DNA of 42,213 nt from a virus: positions 1 to 42,213 of the IMG/VR virus record IMGVR_UViG_3300022918_000006; one strand, given 5' to 3'. Under the pieces are notes generated by a model. It saw only the letters and a list, made by a program, of their open reading frames with translations. It was not told where the DNA came from and searched no databases. The stretch's first letter is position 1. The number at the start of each line of letters is the position of its first letter. Shown here one piece after another: positions 11,107 to 37,187 of the stretch. The translations under genes and the position numbers were made by a program.

Positions 11107-12963
11107 CTATTGTTGTGATTGCTCTGCTGCGAAGTCTTGTTTGGCTTGTGCGACTGCGAGCTCTGTTTCTTCGTCAGCGAATTGCTGATCGGCTTCGCCG
11201 CGAGCTTGCTCTTGCATTTGTTGATCTGCTGCAGCTTGTTGTGCGGCCTGTTGTTGAAGTTGTGCTTGAGAAGGTTGGAATAGAGAGTTGATGTCTTCTT
11301 CTGAAGCATCGAGAGATTTACCGATAAGACGGATTACAGCTTCTTGGTTAGGAATATTAGGGTTATTAATCAATACTTGATAGAATTGATTATCCTTCAT
11401 TCCACGTTCTTCTTTAGCCTTTTTGATTGTGGTGTCGAGTTTTACGTGCGGCTCGTATTCACCTGAGAACTCATAAGGATCGAAGTCCTTAAAGTGAACA
11501 CCATCTTCTCCTACGATACGAACGACTGTTTCTTGGTCTACAAAGATTTGTGACATCTTAAATAGAACTGAACCGAGTTGTGCGTAACCTTCAGATTCAA
11601 GGTTAGTTACCTTTGTTTGGAAGCGAGTCATAGCTTGAGTTGAAACTTGTGCTACTTCTGTGGCAGTAGTACGAGAACCACTTGGAGCTGCACCCTGAAT
11701 AATTTCGTCAGCTGCTGTAGCGCGGCGCATTTCGTCTTTGATTTCCTGCTTCTTCATGTCGAGATCGCCTGTTTGTTGAGGTTTTTCGATTGGTTCTAGA
11801 CCATAACGAGGAATAGGGATAACAATACCTGGTGTAGATTCGATTTCACCGGCCATGTCTTCATAAGCTGGGTCAATACGCCACATAGTGTTGTTAAGGA
11901 AGTGCATATTATCGAGGTCAAGGTTTTCGACATCGTTAAGAGTTTCTTGGCGGTCAAGGATAACTTCGACGTCACCGTAGCCGTAAAATAGAGATGAGTC
12001 GATTGTATTTCTAAGAATTGCAAATGGCATGAATGGCTTAATCGCTGGGATAGTCTTGATCTGTTCGATTGGGACACCTTGTAGATCAGTTACTTCAACT
12101 GGTTGTTGCATTTCGTCTTGCTGGTATGGGGTGTCAATTTCACGAATGACTACTGTACGGTTGGCGATTTCAACGAGTTTTTCGTTGCCTTCTTCCATGT
12201 AGTACATAATAATTACTTCGATTTGACGATCATTATTGTGACCTTCATTACCACCAGCCATAAGAGATTCTTTATTAGCCTTGTCCATAGTGTCCGGAGA
12301 ACTAGTTGAACCATCTGATGCGGGATTAGTCCAATCAAGATTCTTATACTTAGGTACGAGTTCACCTGTCTCAGGATCAATAACCTTTTGTTTCTTCATT
12401 TCTTCTTTATCACCTAGGTAGCGGAATCCTGCAAAGCGAGCATTCTCAAGATTAGTTGCAGAAGAATCTACGAAGAAGTCGCGGAGTGGAACGTTGTCAA
12501 TACAAGGCATATTCTTTTCAGCATCCCACGTAACGTGAAGAAGACCGTTCCCATAGAGGATTGCATCACGAACCCATGACTGTGATTTAGTACCCATGTG
12601 GTTAGCATCCCAGTAATACGCAATAAGCTCAGAAAGAACCTTTGTGTCGGTTTCCTGTTCTTCATTTGTTGGGATGTAGCTAAACTTTGGTTGTGATCCA
12701 GCGATGTTTGCGACAAGAGATTCGACGATTGTTCGAGTTTCTGGAACAAAGGCATCAGCAATAGAGTTATAACCGATCTTTACTCGGCGGCCATTATAGA
12801 CTTTCCAACAGTCAAACCATTTATCGTGATAATTATCGCGAACATAGTTAGAAGCGGTTCTAAAGTCCTTGATGTATTTGTCAAGATTACCATTAGCTGG
12901 TTGCTTCTCTGTCTTTTCACCTTTGTATGGAGCTGGTTCTTCTTGTTTTGTTGGTTTTGGCAT
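11107..12963 (-). CDS. Portal protein, P22/podovirus type, 618 aa
   Basis: The 618-residue protein starts on the last base of the terminase gene (TAATG), the classic terminase-portal order. Features match the P22-like portal family: YNSIADAFVPETRTIVESLVANIAG-type sequence near 65-95, a central region with DRQETLNDVENLDLDNMHF, the segment RRATAADEIIQGAAPSGSRT with ATEV near 400-425, and a long Gln/Ala-rich C-terminal helical barrel. It forms the 12-fold ring at the capsid vertex through which DNA is packaged. Confidence 0.88.
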   Translation of the reverse strand: MPKPTKQEEPAPYKGEKTEKQPANGNLDKYIKDFRTASNYVRDNYHDKWFDCWKVYNGRRVKIGYNSIADAFVPETRTIVESLVANIAGSQPKFSYIPTNEEQETDTKVLSELIAYYWDANHMGTKSQSWVRDAILYGNGLLHVTWDAEKNMPCIDNVPLRDFFVDSSATNLENARFAGFRYLGDKEEMKKQKVIDPETGELVPKYKNLDWTNPASDGSTSSPDTMDKANKESLMAGGNEGHNNDRQIEVIIMYYMEEGNEKLVEIANRTVVIREIDTPYQQDEMQQPVEVTDLQGVPIEQIKTIPAIKPFMPFAILRNTIDSSLFYGYGDVEVILDRQETLNDVENLDLDNMHFLNNTMWRIDPAYEDMAGEIESTPGIVIPIPRYGLEPIEKPQQTGDLDMKKQEIKDEMRRATAADEIIQGAAPSGSRTTATEVAQVSTQAMTRFQTKVTNLESEGYAQLGSVLFKMSQIFVDQETVVRIVGEDGVHFKDFDPYEFSGEYEPHVKLDTTIKKAKEERGMKDNQFYQVLINNPNIPNQEAVIRLIGKSLDASEEDINSLFQPSQAQLQQQAAQQAAADQQMQEQARGEADQQFADEETELAVAQAKQDFAAEQSQQ

Positions 12964-28983: not shown

Positions 28984-29931
28984 ATGGGTTTATTCAGAAG
29001 TTATCCTAAGATTATGTCACTTCATAAAGAGGAAGTAGAAGGAATCTTAGACACACCAGTTACAGTACAAGAAAAGGTAGACGGAGCGAATGTATCCATC
29101 TGGATGCGTGATGATGGTTCAATTGCTTATGGTTCACGCACGCGTGAACTTGGAGATGATGACTTCAATGGCTTCGGGACTTATGTTAAAGAACATGAGA
29201 AGCAGTTGCTAGATTGGTTCTCTAAGAATCCTAACTGTCGCCTTTACGGTGAATGGCTTGTTAAGCACACTATCACCTACCCCGACGAAGCTTATAAGAA
29301 GATGTATCTCTATGACATCTATTTAGAAAATGCTGAAATTAACATTGAACAAAATTACGTAAAAGACGCAGCAGAGTTCCTAGGCTTTGAATACCCTAAA
29401 TTATTCTTTGAGGATCAAATCATTACGCTTGAACAACTCACTGAGGTAGTTGGTAAATCATTTATCGGTGTAAATGGTGAAGGCGTAGTAATTAAGAATC
29501 CAACGTATAAGAATAAATGGGGTAATCATGTCTACGCAAAGAAAGTCCACGAGAAATTTAAGGAAAGTAATGCTATCGTTTTTGGTGGGAATAACAAGCA
29601 CTCTGAGTCTTACTGGGAAATGTATGTGGTTAACAAATACGCCACTCTGGGACGTCTTAATAAGATCATTCAGAAGTTCGAACCGGAACTATCAGAAAAA
29701 CTCGACTATAAGCATATACCTGAGATCACAGGACGCGCATATTATGATCTACTCACAGAAGAAATTTGGGAGATTGCAGGTAAGGTGGTATCTTTGGACT
29801 TCAAACGCCTCCGCCACCTGGCTACCCGCAAATTTACCCAGATTTTCAAGGATAAATTAGAGAACACAATAAGTATTGCCGATTTAGGTAAAGAGGAGAA
29901 AGTTGATGTCAGAACAACTAACACAAAGTGA
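28984..29931 (+). CDS. ATP-dependent RNA ligase, Rnl2-like, 315 aa
   Basis: All nucleotidyltransferase motifs are visible: motif I EKVDGAN with the nucleophile K31, RLYGEWL (motif III), GEGVVIK (motif IV) and YAKKV (motif V). It joins RNA ends and, with the kinase-phosphatase downstream, could reseal tRNAs cut in the anticodon loop. The C-terminal part (about 220-315) is helical. AAGGGGG precedes the ATG. It begins the operon that ends with peptidyl-tRNA hydrolase. Confidence 0.9.
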   Translation: MGLFRSYPKIMSLHKEEVEGILDTPVTVQEKVDGANVSIWMRDDGSIAYGSRTRELGDDDFNGFGTYVKEHEKQLLDWFSKNPNCRLYGEWLVKHTITYPDEAYKKMYLYDIYLENAEINIEQNYVKDAAEFLGFEYPKLFFEDQIITLEQLTEVVGKSFIGVNGEGVVIKNPTYKNKWGNHVYAKKVHEKFKESNAIVFGGNNKHSESYWEMYVVNKYATLGRLNKIIQKFEPELSEKLDYKHIPEITGRAYYDLLTEEIWEIAGKVVSLDFKRLRHLATRKFTQIFKDKLENTISIADLGKEEKVDVRTTNTK

Positions 29932-30181
29932 ATTCGTGAGCCGTAGGGCTACTGTAGAGAAAATGCTCCCACCTGAACTGCTTGAGGTTCGTAAAGGTAT
30001 TCTAGAGCGTTTAAACAATGAACAAGATGACCTAGATATGATTAATGATGTTCTAAATGGTTATGGGTATACTGAAGCCATTATCGAACAAACAACTGGT
30101 GTATACGATGCTAAAGACGAGACACTAGGATCTCCTGAACACCCTGAAGATAATAAATGGGACGGCCGTGGACGTGAGTAG
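29906..30181 (+). CDS. Unknown acidic protein, 91 aa
   Basis: Not recognised. I chose ATG 29906, with GAGGAG 7 nt upstream, rather than the TTG just before it. It overlaps the ligase end by 26 nt. Helical and acidic, with an FVSRRATVEKMLPPELLE start. The tight position between ligase and kinase suggests an accessory role in the same module. Confidence 0.6.
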   Translation: MSEQLTQSEFVSRRATVEKMLPPELLEVRKGILERLNNEQDDLDMINDVLNGYGYTEAIIEQTTGVYDAKDETLGSPEHPEDNKWDGRGRE

Positions 30182-30380
30182 AACTAACACTTGGGAAGGC
30201 GGGGATCCTGACGATGTATCAGGCTACCTTGTGGATTACATTCATACCTGGTTAGATAAAAAGAAGCTTCTTGACGTTAATGCTGAAATCTATGAAGAAC
30301 GCATTTACGAAATGGAAGATGATGATAAAGTAGATTTTATAATTAACTGCCTACAGGCAATAAAGGCACAAAATGCTTAA
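30168..30380 (+). CDS. Unknown acidic protein, 70 aa
   Basis: Not recognised. It starts with GTG in a 14-nt overlap with the previous gene and overlaps the kinase-phosphatase gene by 8 nt. It is very acidic and mostly helical (YEERIYEMEDDDKVDFIINC). Function unknown. Confidence 0.6.
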   Translation: MDVSRTNTWEGGDPDDVSGYLVDYIHTWLDKKKLLDVNAEIYEERIYEMEDDDKVDFIINCLQAIKAQNA

Positions 30381-31272
30381 ACTAGTAATGATGAAAGGAC
30401 TTCCCGGAAGCGGCAAGTCTACAATAGCTAAAGCAATGGTTGATGAACTTGACTATGTTCGAACCAATAAAGACGAACTACGTCTAGAACACCCTAATTG
30501 GGACGAAGTTAAGATTGTACATGAAAGAAATCGTCAAGTTCGTACAGCCTTTGATAATAAGAAATCAGTTGTTGTTGATGACACCAACTTTAACCCTGTT
30601 CATAAAAAATACTTACAGAAGTTATGTAAGGACTACGGTGTCCAATTTGAAGAAGTGTTTGTAGATACTCCACTCGAAGAATGTATTAAGCGTGATAACG
30701 CCCGAGCTAATGGTGTGGGGGAAACTGTTATCAAACGTATGTATAGACAATACCTACGTAAGATTGAGACTCCAATCAAACTAGATACAGACGAAGACGC
30801 TTGTATCATTGTTGATATTGATGGAACACTTGCTCATATGACAGAGGAAGGCCGACTCCGATTTGGAAGACAGGCTCCGTACATGTGGAAGAACGTGGGT
30901 GAAGACAAGGCGGACTTAGCTGTCCAAACAACATTAGTTGGTATCCAGTTATTTGGTAAAACGGTCGCGCAGATAATGGAAGCCATAGAGAGAAAAGGGC
31001 GTCTTAAGACAATCTTAATGTCAGGACGCGACGAAGTATGCCGCCCAGAAACTGAAAAGTGGCTTAAAGATAATGGTATCCAGTACGATGAGCTGTTTAT
31101 GCGGCCGCAGGGAGATAATCGTAAAGATAACCTTGTAAAAGAGGAGATCTATGAACGTGAGATCAATGGCAAATACGAAGTACTTCTTGTACTCGACGAT
31201 CGTGATCAAGTTGTAGAAATGTGGCGGAATAAGGGACTTAAGTGTTTCCAAGTAGCTGAAGGTGACTTCTAA
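30373..31272 (+). CDS. Polynucleotide kinase-3' phosphatase, 299 aa
   Basis: The N-terminal kinase has GLPGSGKST (residues 9-17) and VVDDTNFNP. The C-terminal HAD phosphatase has VDIDGTLAHM with D148 and D150 and MSGRDEVCRPETEKWL. This kinase-then-phosphatase order is that of T4 PseT/Pnkp, which heals the 2',3'-cyclic phosphate and 5'-OH ends left by anticodon nucleases before ligation. It lies in the same operon as the RNA ligase, as expected. Confidence 0.9.
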   Translation: MLKLVMMKGLPGSGKSTIAKAMVDELDYVRTNKDELRLEHPNWDEVKIVHERNRQVRTAFDNKKSVVVDDTNFNPVHKKYLQKLCKDYGVQFEEVFVDTPLEECIKRDNARANGVGETVIKRMYRQYLRKIETPIKLDTDEDACIIVDIDGTLAHMTEEGRLRFGRQAPYMWKNVGEDKADLAVQTTLVGIQLFGKTVAQIMEAIERKGRLKTILMSGRDEVCRPETEKWLKDNGIQYDELFMRPQGDNRKDNLVKEEIYEREINGKYEVLLVLDDRDQVVEMWRNKGLKCFQVAEGDF

Positions 31273-31475
31273 TGAAGAACCAATATGCTATCTTAAAATC
31301 AGACGGTACATATTTGTCACATTGGGGTTCGGGTGGCATACGAACCTATACCAGTGTTATTAACGCTGAAAGAGCGGTTGATAATCACTGGAAGAATGTA
31401 AAAGAAAACGGCTACTCTATCGTTGAGTTATCTCCAGTGATAGTTAAGACCATAAGCAGTATTGACAAAACATAA
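31272..31475 (+). CDS. Small protein, 67 aa
   Basis: Not recognised. It starts on the last base of the previous stop. It reads as a compact alpha/beta domain (AILKSDGTYLSHWGSGG, then INAERAVDNHWKNV). A promoter lies just after it. Function unknown. Confidence 0.6.
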   Translation: MKNQYAILKSDGTYLSHWGSGGIRTYTSVINAERAVDNHWKNVKENGYSIVELSPVIVKTISSIDKT

Positions 31476-31490
31476 GCACTATGATAAGCT
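31462..31490 (+). promoter_or_regulatory. Promoter for the nucleotidyltransferase gene
   Basis: TTGACA, 17 bp, then TAAGCT preceded by TGA. The ATG at 31500 is 9 nt after the -10, so the leader is about 2 nt. A TATGAT at shorter spacing is an alternative -10. Confidence 0.5.
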
Positions 31491-31499
31491 GAAAGCAAT

Positions 31500-32204
31500 A
31501 TGAAACAGACGGGTGAAAACGTAGACATTATAGCAAAAGTAGTTGTAGGCTCTCGTCTACATGGGCTTCATAACGAGCAATCTGACTACGACTATCGCGG
31601 TATCCACATGCACAATATGAAGGACATCCTATCGCCGTTTAAGACACTTAAGAACACTACATGGATCGAAGGTGACGAAGACAACACTTCATACGAACTA
31701 GCCGATTTCTGTAAGTCAGCTGTGCATGGCAACGCTACGGTGCTTGAGGTATTCTTCTCTGATCAAATTATTTCAACTAGTGCAATTCATCAAGAGATGA
31801 AAGACAACTGGCAGAAGTTCATGGACACAGATAAGTTTGTAATGGCTTCTAAGGGCTATGCCCAGAATCAACTTAACAAGATGCAACTATTCGAAGATGA
31901 TGGTATTAACGGTCAACGTCGAACAGGAAAATTTGTCGTAGCCTTTATGAGGGTTATCTGGCAGGCTATTGAGTTTCTTCGTACTGGTCAGTTTAAGTGT
32001 GTTATTCCAGAAGGAAACATGCGAGACTTCATGCTTATGGTTAAGAACGACTGGAAGGCTGAATACACACCGCTCGCCATGAAATGGTTCTCTAATCTAC
32101 AAGCTCGGCTTTCTGAAGAATGGGCTAAAGCAGATAAGATGAAGCCCGATATTGAATGGATCGAAGACTTTATTTACCGCGCTTATGAAGGGAAAATTGC
32201 CTAA
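31500..32204 (+). CDS. Predicted nucleotidyltransferase, 234 aa
   Basis: GSRLHGL (G17, S18) and SDYDYRG (D29, D31) are the GS...DxD core of the DNA polymerase beta-type nucleotidyltransferase fold, as in the uncharacterised YcgL/COG3541 type. Such enzymes add nucleotides to RNA or small molecules. Its position between RNA repair and peptidyl-tRNA hydrolase genes suggests a tRNA-related substrate, but this is inference. The -10 lies 9 nt from the ATG, so a leaderless mRNA is likely. Confidence 0.8.
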   Translation: MKQTGENVDIIAKVVVGSRLHGLHNEQSDYDYRGIHMHNMKDILSPFKTLKNTTWIEGDEDNTSYELADFCKSAVHGNATVLEVFFSDQIISTSAIHQEMKDNWQKFMDTDKFVMASKGYAQNQLNKMQLFEDDGINGQRRTGKFVVAFMRVIWQAIEFLRTGQFKCVIPEGNMRDFMLMVKNDWKAEYTPLAMKWFSNLQARLSEEWAKADKMKPDIEWIEDFIYRAYEGKIA

Positions 32205-32341
32205 TGGAAAATTCAAATCATAAATGGTCTAAACATACTCTTGCTCGAATGCTTAGAATGGCTGCACGGTACAGAAACAAAAAAGCTGAACATAAACGTG
32301 AACGCCAAAATAAAAGATTAGGAAGACTTCGTAATGTTTAG
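32204..32341 (+). CDS. Basic peptide, 45 aa
   Basis: Starts on the last base of the nucleotidyltransferase stop and overlaps the next gene by 8 nt. It is strongly basic and helical (TLARMLRMAARYRNKKAEHK), so RNA or DNA binding is plausible. Function unknown. Confidence 0.5.
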   Translation: MENSNHKWSKHTLARMLRMAARYRNKKAEHKRERQNKRLGRLRNV

Positions 32342-32483
32342 TGTAATTGTTCTAAAGTATCAAAAAGGCTACGTAGCCGAACTAAGATTTAAAGATAAGA
32401 GTAAAGATAAAAACATTTCATCTACAGACCACAATAAGTTATTAGATGAGGTAGTAGATTACATCCAGAAGGTCACGTTATGA
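32334..32483 (+). CDS. Small protein, 49 aa
   Basis: Not recognised. Mixed beta/alpha (FSVIVLKYQKGYVAELRF, then LLDEVVDYIQ). It overlaps both neighbours by 4-8 nt, so it is probably translated by coupling. Confidence 0.5.
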   Translation: MFSVIVLKYQKGYVAELRFKDKSKDKNISSTDHNKLLDEVVDYIQKVTL

Positions 32484-32764
32484 AAACAGTCTACAGGTTC
32501 CCGATAGAGATCTTCTACGAACCTGACGCATTTAAGTTCGTCAATGAGCTTATGGAAGGGTTTGGACTCAATGAGAAATTCGGTATGTCAGGCAATACAG
32601 GTCATACAGATCTATCACTCGAATCCAAAGTTGAAATCATATTAGACGACGAACGACTTGAAACCTGTCGTAAGATAATACAAACCGGATTTGATGAGAT
32701 ACAAAAAGATAAACCAGAACTATCAAAACTAAAAATAACAGTAAAAAAAGGATACAAACTATGA
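32480..32764 (+). CDS. Unknown protein, 94 aa
   Basis: Not recognised. Alpha/beta, with FRFPIEIFYEPDA-like start and a C-terminal Lys-rich strand (LSKLKITVKKGYKL). It overlaps the peptidyl-tRNA hydrolase start by 4 nt (ATGA). Position suggests a tRNA-related role, without direct evidence. Confidence 0.6.
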   Translation: MKTVYRFPIEIFYEPDAFKFVNELMEGFGLNEKFGMSGNTGHTDLSLESKVEIILDDERLETCRKIIQTGFDEIQKDKPELSKLKITVKKGYKL

Positions 32765-33180
32765 TTAACCCATGTATTTACATATTTGTCAATAAGGGAC
32801 TCAGGATGTCTGCTGGTAAAGTAGCAAGTCAAACTGCTCATGCTGCCGCTCAGATCTTTTCTAAACTTCCACCTGAAGATCTGCAGTTATTCTGGTCAAA
32901 AGAACCACACCGTACCATTATCGTCCTTGAAGCAAGAGATGAGAACCACATCAGGAATATTAATAACTATCTTGACAATAGGGGTATTAATTGCGACTTG
33001 GTAATTGACGAAGGTGAAAATGAAGTACCGCCACATAGCATTACAGCGCTTGTGACACCGATCCTCGATAAGAACCAGTGGACTGATAAACTTATGAGTA
33101 CGTTTGAACTTTACAGAGGGGAGCCTTCAGGTATCATGATTAGACCTCAATGGCCACAAGGTGTGATTGTAAGAGTATGA
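32761..33180 (+). CDS. Peptidyl-tRNA hydrolase, PTH2 family, 139 aa
   Basis: The pattern NKGLRMSAGKVASQTAHAA near residues 10-28, TIIVLEA, and VIDEGENEVPPHSITALVTP match the archaeal/eukaryotic-type PTH2 fold, including the conserved Lys and the acidic pair of the active site. The enzyme frees tRNA from peptidyl-tRNA. In a phage with 23 tRNA genes this would recycle its tRNA pool. It is coupled to both neighbours. Confidence 0.85.
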   Translation: MINPCIYIFVNKGLRMSAGKVASQTAHAAAQIFSKLPPEDLQLFWSKEPHRTIIVLEARDENHIRNINNYLDNRGINCDLVIDEGENEVPPHSITALVTPILDKNQWTDKLMSTFELYRGEPSGIMIRPQWPQGVIVRV

Positions 33181-34479: not shown

Positions 34480-34504
34480 TACCAACTTATAAATGTGCTT
34501 TAAT

Positions 34505-34643
34505 CGCAGGAGTCAGACTTGAACTGACATCTTTAGGCGTCATGCCCGCCGCATTAGAATTATGCGTACACCACGTGGATAGGGAGACCCCAGAGTGCGT
34601 GCTGGGCAAATGTCACTGACTCCACGTCAGTAAATCTCTCATA
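34505..34643 (-). ncRNA. Structured RNA with a T-arm-like hairpin
   Basis: Starting just after a promoter, the minus-strand RNA has ACTGAC-GTGGA-GTCAGT, CCCAG/CTGGG, CGCAT/ATGCG, GGCG/CGCC, and finally GTCAG-TTCAAGT-CTGAC, which is a perfect tRNA T-arm. GGAGTCAG can instead pair with CTGACTCC at the far end, so two folds compete. There is no matching acceptor stem or anticodon, so it is not a standard tRNA. Confidence 0.45.
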
Positions 34644-34687: not shown

Positions 34688-34760
34688 TGGTTCCCACGCT
34701 AGGACTCGCACCCAGATGGACGGCTTCAAAGGCCGCTATCCTACTTTAGATGACACGGGA
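34688..34760 (-). tRNA. tRNA-Gln(TTG), G18A/U55G type
   Basis: Anticodon loop CTTTGAA. Acceptor TCCCGTG pairs with CGTGGGA through two G-U pairs. The D-loop reads AAAGTA (AG instead of GG) and the T-loop TGCGAGT (G55). CCA is encoded. Confidence 0.85.
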
Positions 34761-34763
34761 TTA

Positions 34764-34819
34764 TGGTTCAGGGAGCTAAGGTTTCAGCCTTAGCGCTTAC
34801 ACTTACGTGTTATCCCCGA
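34764..34819 (-). ncRNA. 56-nt tRNA-like RNA without an anticodon arm
   Basis: Acceptor TCGGGGA pairs fully with TCCCTGA, including a G3-U70 wobble. A73 and CCA are encoded. Linker TA leads to ACAC-GTAA-GTGT (D-like), then GCTAAGG-CTGAAA-CCTTAGC directly abuts the 3' acceptor strand, as a T-arm does. The 14-bp coaxial stack is close to a tRNA acceptor-T helix. G3-U70 with A73 is the alanine identity signal also used by tmRNA. It lies 2-3 nt from its tRNA neighbours and would be processed with them. Confidence 0.6.
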
Positions 34820-34821
34820 TA

Positions 34822-34907
34822 TGGCGGAAAGTTAAGGACTTGCACCCTATGGCTTACACCATTCATCGCTTAGCAAGCGAGAGTCTTACTTTAAGACTAA
34901 ACTTTCC
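34822..34907 (-). tRNA. tRNA-Ser(GCT), G18A/U55G type
   Basis: Anticodon loop TTGCTAA. Class II variable arm ATGG/CCAT. Acceptor GGAAAGT/ACTTTCC is perfect. The D-loop has AAAGT (AG for GG) and the T-loop is TGCAAGT (G55). G73 and CCA are present. Its 5' end directly abuts the stop of the 53-aa ORF. Confidence 0.85.
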
Positions 34908-35069
34908 CTACTGGCAACCTTCACACATGGTGAGGTCTGCTGGATCTAAAGGTGCTGCATTAGGATTATTCGACTTGTAAGTTTCCTGGGCGTTAGCCAT
35001 CGCTGCATCAATCGCGGCCAGTTTTTCTTCTAATGTCATTGTTTCTGAGAGTATAGTTTGTGCGTTCAT
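34908..35069 (-). CDS. Short leaderless ORF inside the tRNA array, 53 aa
   Basis: A 53-residue ORF with a helical first half (TLEEKLAAIDAAMANAQETY) and a C-terminal MCEGCQ that could bind metal. TATAAT (35077-35082) lies 7 nt before the ATG, so the mRNA starts at or next to the start codon. Its TAG stop directly precedes tRNA-Ser, so tRNA processing would cut the message at its end. Function unknown. Confidence 0.65.
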   Translation of the reverse strand: MNAQTILSETMTLEEKLAAIDAAMANAQETYKSNNPNAAPLDPADLTMCEGCQ

Positions 35070-35076
35070 TATAACC

Positions 35077-35082
35077 ATTATA
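35077..35082 (-). promoter_or_regulatory. -10 box of the 53-aa ORF and downstream tRNAs
   Basis: TATAAT on the minus strand, 7 nt before the ATG at 35069. No TTGACA-like -35 box is seen. Confidence 0.55.
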
Positions 35083-35113
35083 CTCTCATTTTGCTTATGG
35101 TTCGTTGTAGTTT

Positions 35114-35187
35114 TGGCTGGATAAATCAGGCTCGAACTGATGATACCTCCTTAACAGGGAGACGTGTTACCACTACACTATAATCCA
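35114..35187 (-). tRNA. tRNA-Asn(GTT)
   Basis: Anticodon loop CTGTTAA. Acceptor TGGATTA/TTATCCA has one mismatch. D-loop GG and T-loop TTCGAGC are normal. G73 and CCA are encoded. Confidence 0.88.
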
Positions 35188-35190
35188 ATA

Positions 35191-35266
35191 TGGCGTCCAC
35201 GGCGAGATTCGAACTCGTAACCTCTCGCGTGACAGGCGAGTGCTCTAACCATTGAGCTACGTGGAC
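35191..35266 (-). tRNA. tRNA-Asp(GTC)
   Basis: Anticodon loop CTGTCAC, perfect acceptor GTCCACG/CGTGGAC, normal D-loop and T-loop (TTCGAAT), G73 and CCA encoded. Confidence 0.92.
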
Positions 35267-35269
35267 ATT

Positions 35270-35347
35270 TGGGGTGATCGGTGGGAATTGAACCCATCTC
35301 TCCGGCTTCACAGGCCAGCGCTTTCAACCAAGTAAGCTACGATCAAC
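35270..35347 (-). tRNA. tRNA-His(GTG)
   Basis: Anticodon loop CTGTGAA. C73 is present and a G lies before position 1, so the histidine-specific G-1:C73 pair can form. T1-C72 is mismatched. D-loop GG and T-loop TTCAATT are normal. CCA is encoded. Confidence 0.88.
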
Positions 35348-35367
35348 ATACAACAACTATAAAGATT

Positions 35368-35451
35368 TGGCGGAAGACATAGGATTCGAACCTACTAAGC
35401 TGTAACACCTCAGAGTTTTCAAGACTCTTTCCTTCCAGTCGGGTATCTTCC
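35368..35451 (-). tRNA. tRNA-Ser(TGA)
   Basis: Anticodon loop CTTGAAA, class II variable arm, acceptor GGAAGAT/GTCTTCC with one G-U, normal D-loop (CTGG) and T-loop (TTCGAAT), G73 and CCA encoded. Confidence 0.9.
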
Positions 35452-35458
35452 ATATTTA

Positions 35459-35544
35459 TGGTCTCGTAGGTGAGAGTCGAACTCACATGCCCTTACGGAC
35501 ACTAGTTTCTAAAACTAGCGCGTATACCATTCCGCCACTACGAG
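35459..35544 (-). tRNA. tRNA-Leu(TAG)
   Basis: Anticodon loop TTTAGAA, class II variable arm, perfect acceptor CTCGTAG/CTACGAG, normal D-loop GG and T-loop TTCGACT, A73 and CCA encoded. Confidence 0.92.
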
Positions 35545-35550
35545 ATAAAT

Positions 35551-35638
35551 TGGTGCCGAAGATAGGAGTTGCACCTATACGCCATATTTCAGGCAGCGGT
35601 TTTTGAGACCGCCGTGTCTACTATTCCACCACATCAGC
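35551..35638 (-). tRNA. tRNA-Leu(CAA), G18A/U55G type
   Basis: Anticodon loop CTCAAAA, class II variable arm TGCC...GGC. Acceptor has one T-T mismatch. The D-loop reads AATAGTAGA (AG for GG) and the T-loop TGCAACT (G55). A73 and CCA are encoded. Confidence 0.85.
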
Positions 35639-35641
35639 ATA

Positions 35642-35716
35642 TGGCCGCTTCACTCTGAATCGCACAGAGATCCTACGTGCTTCAAACGTATGCACTGACT
35701 ATTGTGCTATAAAGCG
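35642..35716 (-). tRNA. tRNA-Phe(GAA), G18A/U55G type
   Basis: Anticodon loop TTGAAGC. Acceptor CGCTTTA/TGAAGCG with one G-U. D-stem GCAC/GTGC encloses AATAGTCA (AG for GG). The T-loop is TGCGATT (G55). The discriminator is G73 rather than the usual A. CCA is encoded. Confidence 0.85.
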
Positions 35717-35719
35717 ATT

Positions 35720-35803
35720 TGGTCGGACATCCTGGTAACGATCCAGGCGGGTATTAACAACAGTTTTACAGACTGTCTCGCCTCCTTAACGAACTACTAT
35801 CCG
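35720..35803 (-). tRNA. tRNA-Tyr(GTA) with A54/U58 T-loop
   Basis: Anticodon loop CTGTAAA with a variable region of about 12 nt, as usual in bacterial tRNA-Tyr. The T-loop is ATCGTTA: positions 54 and 58, normally U and A, are exchanged to A and U. The last acceptor pair is mismatched and the D-arm is irregular. A73 and CCA are encoded. Confidence 0.8.
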
Positions 35804-35828
35804 ATAGTAAACAAGTTTACTTGTTATT

Positions 35829-35905
35829 TGGTCAGAGCAGCAGGACTTGAACCTGCGTTCTCTCGCGTCCAAGGCGAGCGGATTAGCCAACTTTCCCATA
35901 CTCTG
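35829..35905 (-). tRNA. tRNA-Pro(TGG)
   Basis: Anticodon loop CTTGGAC, acceptor CAGAGTA/TGCTCTG with one G-U, D-loop GG, T-loop TTCAAGT, A73 and CCA encoded. Confidence 0.9.
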
Positions 35906-35908
35906 ATT

Positions 35909-35982
35909 TGGCAGGAGCTATACGATTTGAACGTATGATAGAGGTTTTGGAGACCCCTGGTTTACCACTAGCCTAAGCTCCT
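35909..35982 (-). tRNA. tRNA-Trp(CCA)
   Basis: Anticodon loop CTCCAAA, perfect acceptor AGGAGCT/AGCTCCT, D-loop GG, T-loop TTCAAAT, G73 (usual for Trp) and CCA encoded. Confidence 0.9.
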
Positions 35983-35987
35983 ATAAA

Positions 35988-36088
35988 GAGACCGCTCGCT
36001 ACCCATCACGGTTTACGGTCGTGACTGTAGGGGTCACTTATAGCCCCACTTGATTCACCGACTACCGTGCCGAAGCCTCGTCCGTCTC
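35988..36088 (-). ncRNA. About 100-nt structured RNA between tRNAs
   Basis: On the minus strand GAGAC at the 5' end pairs with GTCTC at the 3' end, 5 nt before tRNA-Trp. Inside, CACGGT can pair with ACCGTG, and GTGGGG pairs with CCCCTAC with one G-U pair that exists only on this strand. A TATAAT overlaps the T-run just upstream. No anticodon, T-loop or CCA is present. Confidence 0.45.
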
Positions 36089-36095
36089 TAATTAT

Positions 36096-36119
36096 AAAAA
36101 ATAGCACCTATGTGGTGCC
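36096..36119 (-). terminator. Terminator of the 36.1-36.2 kb small RNA
   Basis: On the minus strand GCACC and GGTGC pair over ACATA-type loop and are followed by a run of T. Confidence 0.75.
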
Positions 36120-36225
36120 TGATCGTTTTCTATAAACTTTATTTATGAGTAGTAAACGTCTGACACCTAAAGGATCCAATCCGGTTGGAAAGAATAATTG
36201 AGATGTAGACTTAAACTAATCATAT
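36096..36225 (-). ncRNA. Small RNA between promoter and terminator, about 130 nt
   Basis: It lies between a good promoter (36230-36259) and a terminator and contains no credible ORF. TCCAA-CCGGA-TTGGA forms an internal hairpin on the minus strand. It interrupts the tRNA array between tRNA-Glu and tRNA-Trp. Its target or role cannot be read from the sequence. Confidence 0.5.
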
Positions 36226-36229
36226 TTAC

Positions 36230-36259
36230 ATTCTAGCATACTTGTTATGCTATTGTCAA
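36230..36259 (-). promoter_or_regulatory. Promoter inside the tRNA array
   Basis: On the minus strand TTGACA, 18 bp, then TAGAAT preceded by TGC. Confidence 0.7.
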
Positions 36260-36269
36260 GTTTTAAATT

Positions 36270-36344
36270 TGGTGATCTACCTGAGAGTTGAACTCAGCTT
36301 GCAGGCTTGAAAAGCCTGTGTCCTAACCGATAGACGAGTAAACC
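36270..36344 (-). tRNA. tRNA-Glu(TTC)
   Basis: Anticodon loop TTTTCAA, acceptor GGTTTAC/GTAGATC with two G-U pairs, D-loop GG, T-loop TTCAACT, A73 and CCA encoded. Confidence 0.9.
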
Positions 36345-36347
36345 TCG

Positions 36348-36421
36348 TGGTGCATCCACCAAGAATCGAACTTGGATCAGCAGGTTAAGAGCCTGATGCA
36401 CAGCCATTATGCCATGGATAC
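36348..36421 (-). tRNA. tRNA-Lys(CTT)
   Basis: Anticodon loop CTCTTAA, acceptor GTATCCA/TGGATGC with one G-U, D-loop GG, T-loop TTCGATT, A73 and CCA encoded. Confidence 0.88.
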
Positions 36422-36447
36422 TTATTTGCACAAACTTTAGTTTAACT

Positions 36448-36522
36448 TGGTGGAGCTGCACAGAATCGAACTGTGATTTCCAACGTGCAAGGTTGGAGTA
36501 ATAACCATTATACGACAGCCCC
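36448..36522 (-). tRNA. tRNA-Ala(TGC)
   Basis: Anticodon loop CTTGCAC, acceptor GGGGCTG/CAGCTCC with the G3-U70 alanine identity pair, D-loop GG, T-loop TTCGATT, A73 and CCA encoded. Confidence 0.92.
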
Positions 36523-36525
36523 ATT

Positions 36526-36596
36526 TGGTACCTCTGCAAGGAGTTGAACCTTGTCTTTTGGCTTAGAACACCTAAGTGGAATCCGTCCACAGAAGT
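36526..36596 (-). tRNA. tRNA-Arg(TCT), irregular
   Basis: A short (71-nt) tRNA. Acceptor ACTTCTG/CAGAGGT is paired, with normal T-loop TTCAACT, A73 and CCA. The best anticodon reading is loop GTTCTAA (TCT, Arg), but its stem has one A-A mismatch. A competing perfect stem CTTAG/CTAAG leaves a 5-nt loop. The D-loop is also short. The identity is therefore less sure. Confidence 0.65.
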
Positions 36597-36599
36597 ATA

Positions 36600-36675
36600 T
36601 GGTCGCTCTCCAGTGAATCGAACACTGATGTCTAGTTTGGAAAACTAGCATAATTAACCGTTATATGAGAAAGCG
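36600..36675 (-). tRNA. tRNA-Gly(TCC)
   Basis: Anticodon loop TTTCCAA, acceptor CGCTTTC/GAGAGCG with one G-U, D-loop GG, T-loop TTCGATT, A73 and CCA encoded. Confidence 0.9.
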
Positions 36676-36678
36676 ATT

Positions 36679-36753
36679 TGGAGCCAAGTCGGTGAGTCGA
36701 ACACCGATCCGATCTTTACAAGAGACCTATAATTGCCATTATACGAACTCGGC
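36679..36753 (-). tRNA. tRNA-Thr(TGT)
   Basis: Anticodon loop CTTGTAA, acceptor GCCGAGT/ACTTGGC with one G-U, D-loop GG, T-loop TTCGACT, T73 and CCA encoded. Confidence 0.9.
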
Positions 36754-36759
36754 TTAATG

Positions 36760-36835
36760 TGGTAGCTCCCCTGGGATTCGAACCCAGAACCTCTGCTTCG
36801 AAGGCAGGAATTATGTCCAGTTTCACTAAGGAACT
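36760..36835 (-). tRNA. tRNA-Arg(TCG)
   Basis: Anticodon loop CTTCGAA, acceptor AGTTCCT/GGGAGCT with two G-U pairs, D-loop GG, T-loop TTCGAAT, A73 and CCA encoded. Confidence 0.88.
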
Positions 36836-36838
36836 TTA

Positions 36839-36923
36839 TGGTTGCGAGTGTCAGATTCGAACTGACGTACCTTTCGGCAAGAGCTTATGAGACTCCCAAG
36901 AATGACCGCTTCTTAAACTCGCA
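36839..36923 (-). tRNA. CAT-anticodon tRNA with a class II variable arm
   Basis: Acceptor TGCGAGT/ACTCGCA is perfect. Anticodon stem GGAGT/GCTCT holds loop CTCATAA (CAT). The variable region is 13 nt and forms TGCC-GAAA-GGTA, a small class II arm. D-loop CGG and T-loop TTCGAAT are normal, A73 and CCA encoded. CAT normally belongs to class I tRNA-Met or tRNA-Ile2, so the amino acid cannot be told from the sequence. Confidence 0.75.
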
Positions 36924-36947
36924 TTATCGAAATGTTATTTCGTATTA

Positions 36948-37023
36948 TGGTCTTCCGCCTTGGAATCGAACCAAGTACCGCCTAGGTGTAAGCTAGGAGT
37001 GCAAGCCGGTACACCTGCAGAAG
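36948..37023 (-). tRNA. tRNA-Val(TAC)
   Basis: Anticodon loop CTTACAC, acceptor CTTCTGC/GCGGAAG with one G-U, D-loop GG, T-loop TTCGATT, A73 and CCA encoded. Confidence 0.9.
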
Positions 37024-37035
37024 TTATTTTGTTTA

Positions 37036-37109
37036 TGGTCGGACACCTTAGAGTCGCACTAAGTTCTCCTTCTTATCAGAAAGGTGTTCTACTGTTATAC
37101 TAGTGTCCG
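37036..37109 (-). tRNA. tRNA-Ile(GAT), G18A/U55G type
   Basis: Anticodon loop CTGATAA, perfect acceptor CGGACAC/GTGTCCG. The D-loop reads AACAGTA (AG for GG) and the T-loop TGCGACT (G55). One mismatch in the anticodon stem. A73 and CCA encoded. Confidence 0.85.
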
Positions 37110-37112
37110 ATA

Positions 37113-37187
37113 TGGTGGTCTGCGGAGGAGTCGAACCTCCCTAAGGCTGGTTAAAAGCCAGCTACACAACCGATATGTCAGCAAACC
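37113..37187 (-). tRNA. tRNA-Lys(TTT)
   Basis: Anticodon loop CTTTTAA, acceptor GGTTTGC/GCAGACC with one G-U, D-loop GG, T-loop TTCGACT, A73 and CCA encoded. It is the first tRNA of the array, 4 nt after the 46-aa ORF. Confidence 0.92.

Follow-up and report, generated by a model that had tools for sequence, protein, structure and literature searches.

A paired A18-G55 substitution at the elbow of five tRNAs in a viral tRNA array and its recurrence in other tRNAs

The contact between G18 and pseudouridine 55 is among the most constant in biology, and so little does it vary that ordinary tRNAs seldom reveal covariation between the two positions. In the usual elbow, G18 inserts between bases 57 and 58 and contacts U55, present as pseudouridine. 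The window analyzed here, a viral stretch of 42,213 nucleotides (IMG/VR record IMGVR_UViG_3300022918_000006), encodes a tRNA array in which a sequence-only reading had claimed a change at both sites in five named tRNAs. This locus raises the questions of whether the double change is real, whether it is peculiar to one virus, and what kind of elbow such molecules might form.

Five A18-G55 tRNAs in the window

The array (34688..37187, minus strand) holds 23 tRNAs with encoded CCA, covering codons for all amino acids but Cys. T-loops were located by counting back from the encoded CCA, which removes alignment freedom, and D-loops were read with a scanner blind to positions 18 and 55. A18-G19 together with a UGCRA T-loop, placing G at position 55, was found in exactly 5 of the 23, all on the minus strand: tRNA-Gln(TTG) (34688..34760; D-loop AAAGUA, T-loop UGCGAGU), the class II tRNA-Ser(GCT) (34822..34907; UAAAGUA, UGCAAGU), the class II tRNA-Leu(CAA) (35551..35638; AAUAGUAGA, UGCAACU), tRNA-Phe(GAA) (35642..35716; AAUAGUCA, UGCGAUU), and tRNA-Ile(GAT) (37036..37109; AACAGUA, UGCGACU). 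The blind scanner read the tRNA-Leu(CAA) D-loop as AAUAGUAG(A). GG was present in all 18 other tRNAs and G55 in none (A18 with G55, 5/5 versus 0/18; Fisher exact p = 3.0e-5), bearing out the two-site claim. Seventeen of these have UUC, and one, tRNA-Tyr(GTA) (35720..35803, minus strand), retains GG and has the T-loop AUCGUUA, in which the 54-58 pair is A-U instead of U-A. The further claim that the U55 target of TruB is removed also held, with G at position 55 in the CCA-anchored T-loops of all five (window base 34709 in tRNA-Gln). The A18 call in tRNA-Gln(TTG), which has a short D-loop, depends on G19-C56 pairing, and the acceptor-D linker of tRNA-Ser(GCT) is one base above the usual length.

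The five are best described as variants within the tRNA family (RF00005), since all have cloverleaf stems and score over 29 bits, above the family cut-off (Gln, 45.4; Ser, 33.3; Leu, 47.5; Phe, 53.5; Ile, 46.6 bits), yet carry A18-G19/U54-G55-C56 in place of the consensus G18-G19/U54-U55-C56. They represent five isotypes with pairwise identities of at most 68% and are therefore no recent copies of one gene. ARAGORN called 20 of the 23 array tRNAs, including Leu, Phe, and Ile of the variant set, and missed tRNA-Gln(TTG), tRNA-Ser(GCT), and a weak tRNA-Arg(TCT) at 36526; standard tRNA finders can thus miss genes with such elbows.

The array adjoins RNA-repair genes on the plus strand, encoding an RNA ligase (28984..29931; PF09414, phrog_548), a polynucleotide kinase with a HAD phosphatase domain (30373..31272; PF25109, phrog_505), and the RNA-repair nucleotidyltransferase RlaP (31500..32204; PF10127). 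With peptidyl-tRNA hydrolase PTH2 (32761..33180, plus strand; PF01981) and the tRNAs, one genome combines the full phage RNA-repair and tRNA toolkit. Close relatives yielded no tRNA array, the five terminase relatives having no Rfam tRNA match; none was found in the portion of ctuNt529 scanned; and BLAST of the window array and of a second array, L035, against phage records returned single-tRNA matches only.

Recurrence in viral and bacterial tRNAs

The A18-G55 combination is no local accident of the window; the same paired swap occurs in many viral and some bacterial tRNAs. A pattern search of IMG/VR returned 58 A18/G55, 1 G18/G55, 2 A18/U55, and at least 120 G18/U55 matches, and nearly all of the 58 proved to be complete tRNAs, most of them having 6-7 acceptor pairs. 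In a second viral set of 811 distinct tRNAs with unambiguous loops, assembled without selection by pattern, positions 18-55 were G-U in 726, A-G in 82 (from 23 contigs), A-U in 2, and G-G in 1 (Fisher p = 2.7e-109). Ten apparent G18-G55 cases were mostly AGG loops, to be read as A18-G19-G20. Random mixes of 18/55 changes had been set beforehand as the outcome that would count against a two-site change, and half-changed forms were almost absent. Across 38 anticodons, the stems of viral G55 tRNAs were as well paired as those of U55 tRNAs. Other elbow pairs were swapped as well, 19-56 to A-U and U-A and 54-58 to A-U and G-G; A54-U58, seen in the window's tRNA-Tyr(GTA), was the commonest 54-58 alternative (35 cases). 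Two tRNAs of the isolated cyanophage S-CBWM1 likewise show A19-U56. Viral tRNAs thus supply a missing natural experiment, in which 18-55, 19-56, and 54-58 all vary in matched pairs.

Some loci have switched throughout. G55 was found in all or nearly all tRNAs of four arrays (L035, 25/25; L049, 14/14; L231, 27/28; L274, 26/26), certain all-G55 arrays have lost U54 as well (AGC, GGC, and CGC loops), and Verrucomicrobia arrays carry G55 nearly throughout, while the chromosomal tRNAs of sampled Verrucomicrobia are canonical and a TruB gene is present. Recurrence of the paired swap, even array-wide, suggests that the elbow can be rebuilt without its usual modified base. A18-G55 also occurs in cells: in seven of eight Patescibacteria genomes, the pattern recognized a single initiator-like tRNA, which carries G55, so the combination probably functions in an essential molecule. 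Matches in tRNA-Ile were found in Obscuribacterales and Melainabacteria genomes.

Several candidate correlates of G55 were set aside. RNA-repair context is not sufficient for the swap, as U55 is retained in the large arrays of isolated phages and one plasmid, repair genes being present in some of these (phages Mx1, 25/25; S-CRM01, 27/27; Tunturi_5, 31/32; Nostoc plasmid pNOS7524.01, 15/15). Contigs chosen by the HNH 'LNRNWQ' gene had more G55 (89/369 tRNAs), yet the gene is insufficient because most tRNA-bearing contigs carrying it are mostly or wholly canonical. Clustering of the neighbors of all-G55 arrays for a shared nuclease gave nothing beyond HNH, RtcB, and TROVE genes and the uptake gene ZnuA, and no one of these was universal. 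Host TruB loss does not account for the swap, with TruB in 15 of 18 genomes, including all five Verrucomicrobia. Isotype bias also fails; Cys and Ile are somewhat enriched among G55 tRNAs outside the window, a pattern that mismatches the window's isotype set as a whole.

A UGNRA-type elbow and its possible causes

We consider it likely that the five are working tRNAs in which two compensating substitutions have given the elbow a different kind of T-loop contact. As judged from sequence, this reading draws on the paired change, the viral covariation, intact stems, the initiator-like and array-wide occurrences, and the fit to UGNRA: all 119 viral U54-G55 loops fit this motif, and the five window tRNAs combine a UGCGA or UGCAA loop with A18 as an available outside A. 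Uptake of an outside A through contact with the loop G is common among UGNRA loops (PMC2258182), and an A intercalates into the UGAAA T-loops of FMN riboswitches (PMC3764141). By analogy with rRNA and riboswitch T-loops, U54-G55-C56-R57-A58 would form a UGNRA loop, with A18 slotting in as the outside A, pairing with G55, and completing a GNRA-like stack. The unchanged G19-C56 pair would preserve the elbow's outer face, which is read by the ribosome, and position 55 would be unmodified. The most likely benefit would be elbow folding without TruB, with escape from factors that read the T-psi-C loop, and such an elbow could be of use to backup tRNA sets that accompany RNA-repair genes. Leucylation of E. 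coli and yeast tRNA-Leu is sensitive to the 18-55 contact (PMC9976931), so tRNA-Leu(CAA) cannot be taken for granted as functional.

Decay of the five genes is very improbable: ARAGORN misses three array tRNAs, two of them G55 types, but the five encode CCA and have nearly complete stems, and their changes are paired and affect five isotypes alike. Even harder to credit is diversion from translation through weakened EF-Tu binding, proposed earlier by analogy with staphylococcal cell-wall tRNA-Gly. Escape of that tRNA-Gly from EF-Tu is attributed to altered T-stem pairs, 49-65 and 51-63 (PMC9976931), whereas the window T-stems pair normally, G19-C56 persists, and at 18-55 one contact appears exchanged for another rather than lost; both the lowered binding and the analogy proved unsupported. 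Inheritance from a host whose own tRNAs carry A18-G55 is improbable as well. Some bacteria do use the combination, as in the Patescibacteria initiators and the tRNA-Ile matches, but cellular occurrences are rare (54 stretches in ~85,000 genomes with the pattern of the viral search; 1 of 188 genomes in one class), and no cell was found with the swap in the window's five isotypes.

Two further explanations deserve more weight. Under weak selection on phage tRNAs, one elbow base may mutate and its partner follow without benefit; such neutral compensatory drift is a real possibility, though we lean against it. Swaps at 19-56 and 54-58 and the thin spread of A18-G55 in mostly canonical contigs (44/1032, about 4%) would be in keeping with drift, but clustering over 85 loci is far above that of independent events (dispersion 6.4; arrays of 26/26 and 24/25). 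Somewhat more doubtful is that the virus replaced, in attacked tRNAs, a G18/pseudouridine-55 or T-psi-C feature read by a host or rival tRNase, toxin, or modification enzyme. Array-wide G55 beside canonical chromosomal tRNAs, the additional loss of U54, the repair genes adjoining the window array, and RtcB or TROVE genes adjoining others all favor such an escape, as do the anticodon-loop changes in phage tRNAs proposed to evade anticodon nucleases (PMC10264068). An elbow-specific nuclease was found neither in the window nor in common among all-G55 loci, however, and 18 of the 23 window tRNAs keep U55. AriB of PARIS, moreover, a known defense nuclease, still cuts tRNA taken from cells deleted for truB (PMC12409363) and therefore does not need pseudouridine 55, which counts against escape. 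As a proposed cause, escape could hold alongside the UGNRA reading of the structure.

Returning to the UGNRA-type elbow, we tentatively suggest that mobile backup tRNA sets, in phages and near RNA-repair genes in Verrucomicrobia, might have been selected to replace the whole T-psi-C elbow, so as to fold without TruB or TrmA and go unnoticed by enzymes that recognize the canonical elbow, with the window five as an intermediate stage. Array-wide switching points to some pressure that acts on the elbows of mobile tRNA sets, and A18-G55 tRNAs offer a direct route to asking what pseudouridine 55 is for.

Comparison with known systems

The window tRNAs do not resemble the nonproteinogenic tRNA-Gly of staphylococci, being of the Gln, Ser, Leu, Phe, and Ile isotypes with normally paired T-stems. 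Their setting is closer to that of jumbo-phage arrays, in which tRNAs likewise appear with RNA ligase, PNK, RlaP, and PTH2 (Iyer 2021, PMC7824862); the portion of that work compared here concerns jumbo phages, with elbow sequence no topic in it, whereas the window is a 42-kb virus record. The Anabaena trn operon provides a backup set of tRNAs that stays silent until translation is stressed, and its repressor also controls rtcB (PMC10272220); the related Nostoc plasmid array, compared in its stead, is canonical at position 55 (15/15).

Phage tRNAs that evade tRNases may offer an analogy, in that they too depart from host tRNAs at an enzyme-read site (van den Berg 2023, PMC10264068). Those changes lie in the anticodon loop, and the elbow, D-loop, and pseudouridine are not mentioned in that paper, whereas A18-G55 is a paired change of the elbow and can span a whole array. 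Nonstandard tertiary pairs also occur in functional eukaryotic tRNAs, namely A54-A58 in initiator and Ala tRNAs and C54-A58 in human tRNA-Ile; these reports cover 54-58 and 15-48 and call the G18G19/U54-psi55-C56 contacts conserved in all tRNAs analyzed (PMC7566577, PMC9023262). A close structural parallel would be the UGNRA T-loops of rRNA and of TPP and FMN riboswitches (type R1 lonepair triloops), which share with the window tRNAs, at the level of sequence, a U-G-N-R-A pentaloop and an outside A that would contact the loop G. Those T-loops are known in structured non-tRNA molecules, whereas here the loop would form a tRNA elbow in which C56 also pairs with G19.

Paired changes in the window's tRNA array

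The IMG/VR virus record of 42,213 bases carries an array of 23 CCA-encoded tRNAs on the minus strand (34688–37187), delineated with ARAGORN, by reading back from the CCA, and with a scanner blind to positions 18 and 55. With the CCA, acceptor, and T-arm lengths fixed, T-loop position was found by counting from the 3' end, and UUC had become UGC in exactly 5 of the 23 tRNAs (Gln-TTG, Ser-GCT, Leu-CAA, Phe-GAA, and Ile-GAT). The D-loop reads AG in these same five and GG in the remainder, and none of the 23 is changed at 18 or 55 alone (p = 3.0e-5), which upholds the paired change claimed in the sequence-only reading. The five tRNAs are not recent duplicates of each other, and their share of the array is high versus a G55 background of about 4% in mostly canonical viral contigs (44/1032; p = 0.0025).

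Other structures lie in or beside the array, all on the minus strand. Between tRNA-Gln and tRNA-Ser, a short tRNA-like RNA (34764–34820) with a 7-bp acceptor-like stem ends in CCA and has just two inner hairpins; its fold (-22.8 kcal/mol, z = -4.2) beats 200 of 200 shuffles, and neither ARAGORN nor Rfam calls it a tRNA. A T-arm-like hairpin with a UUC loop and a CAT-bearing arm (34504–34600), lacking a convincing cloverleaf, is perhaps a tRNA remnant. Within the array, an unassigned stretch (35983–36095) has ends that pair, AGAGAC with GUCUCU, and its fold is only marginally better than shuffles (z = -1.8).

Covariation of elbow pairs across viral tRNAs

A single tRNA pattern in four 18/55 versions, scanned against IMG/VR, matched A18/G55 in 58 stretches, nearly all with complete-tRNA folds, and G18/U55 in at least 120, versus 1 for G18/G55 and 2 for A18/U55. 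The blind scanner was then run on fetched loci, and duplicates, selection-pattern matches, and ambiguous D-loops were removed. Covariation held: half-changed states were nearly empty (G-G 1, A-U 2) against 726 G-U and 82 A-G tRNAs, the latter from 23 contigs, with all counts drawn from contigs that were in part pattern-selected. The Fisher p value of 2.7e-109 overstates independence, as related sequences are counted separately; the near-empty off-diagonal cells hold regardless of kinship. Loci fetched solely for a canonical tRNA gave 644 G-U, 12 A-G, 2 A-U, and 0 G-G. A few viral tRNAs, at five loci, combine a GG D-loop with a UCC T-loop, placing G18 opposite C55.

Other elbow pairs also swap among U55 tRNAs, at 19-56 (A19-U56, 15; U19-A56, 2) and at 54-58 (A54-U58, 35; G54-G58, 9); the window tRNA-Tyr falls in the A54-U58 group, its T-loop being AUCGUUA. 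Exchange of G19-C56 for A19-U56 is a second matched elbow swap. It was seen as D-loop GA with T-loop UUUGA at six loci, including the isolated cyanophage S-CBWM1 (tRNAs at 12550 and 13493).

Switched arrays and bacterial tRNAs

Some arrays are switched completely or almost completely, with G55 in 25/25, 14/14, 26/26, and 24/25 tRNAs of four viral arrays and in 27/28, 15/16, and 11/11 of three from Verrucomicrobia; U55 is retained in arrays from isolated phages and from a Nostoc plasmid. At eight loci with switched arrays, almost every T-loop departs from the canonical form (UGC, GGC, AGC, or CGC). Genes near several of these arrays include HNH nuclease and the RNA-repair components RtcB and TROVE, none of which is common to all. 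Sampled chromosomal tRNAs of the Verrucomicrobia genomes concerned are canonical. These genomes encode TruB, so absence of the enzyme is not the reason for the swap there.

As regards function, G55 tRNAs resemble U55 tRNAs in stem pairing and number of anticodons. In the bacterial collection, the A18/G55 pattern matched 54 stretches, including initiator-type tRNAs of Patescibacteria. With a follow-up pattern, 7 of 8 Patescibacteria genomes each yielded a single initiator-like tRNA, of the A18-G55 form; these are draft assemblies from which a second initiator gene could be absent. The simple reading is that this tRNA has an essential role. By the strict pattern the swap is rare in one class of these bacteria (1/188 genomes). 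Nostocales have a separate A18-G55 family of tRNA-like genes, at 17 loci, whose members share one odd acceptor stem (TACATAC with GTGTGTT or a near variant) and differ widely in anticodon.

Proposed elbow structure, possible cause, and relation to known systems

In the usual elbow, G18 is inserted between bases 57 and 58 of the T-loop and bonds to pseudouridine 55 (PMC4810234). UGNRA is itself a recognized class of T-loop, whose G is commonly contacted by an A from outside the loop, yielding a composite GNRA loop (PMC2258182), and UGAAA T-loops of the FMN riboswitch take an intercalated A (PMC3764141). Because all five swapped window loops are UGCRA and 119/119 viral U54-G55 loops fit UGNRA, the swap would exchange one known T-loop solution for another, and a UGNRA-type T-loop is the most likely mechanism, its geometry being inferred. 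G19-C56 is kept, and with it the face that the ribosome reads. Since TruB acts on U55 (PMC7912444), its replacement by G removes the enzyme's site, as previously proposed, and the sequence thereby predicts that pseudouridine 55 is lost.

The main alternative is neutral compensation between the two positions. G55 is clustered (dispersion 6.4), which argues against this as the whole story. One reason for the swap that would fit is a backup tRNA set with an elbow that needs no modification or goes unrecognized by an elbow-directed enzyme; no such enzyme was identified.

A full-text literature search found no report of A18-G55 tRNAs, although most subscription papers lay outside its coverage and novelty is not proven. 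The form is a variant of tRNA, not a new RNA class. A survey of eukaryotic tRNAs found the canonical elbow contacts conserved in all those analyzed (PMC9023262), and phage tRNAs have been argued to achieve evasion through their anticodon loop (PMC10264068). The proposed analogy with staphylococcal tRNA-Gly of cell-wall synthesis was abandoned, as the defining features of that system are lacking. Next to the array lies a row of viral genes (28984–33180, plus strand) for RNA ligase, polynucleotide kinase-phosphatase, RlaP, and PTH2. In a distant relative, ctuNt529, annotated kinase, ligase, and nucleotidyltransferase genes adjoin one another; a scan of 38 kb of its sequence found no tRNAs, and no relative with a tRNA array was found. 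In jumbo phages, the gene set found beside the window's array is described as mending and rescuing tRNAs that host defenses have cut (PMC7824862); the RNA-repair kit is common to both, here in a 42-kb record.
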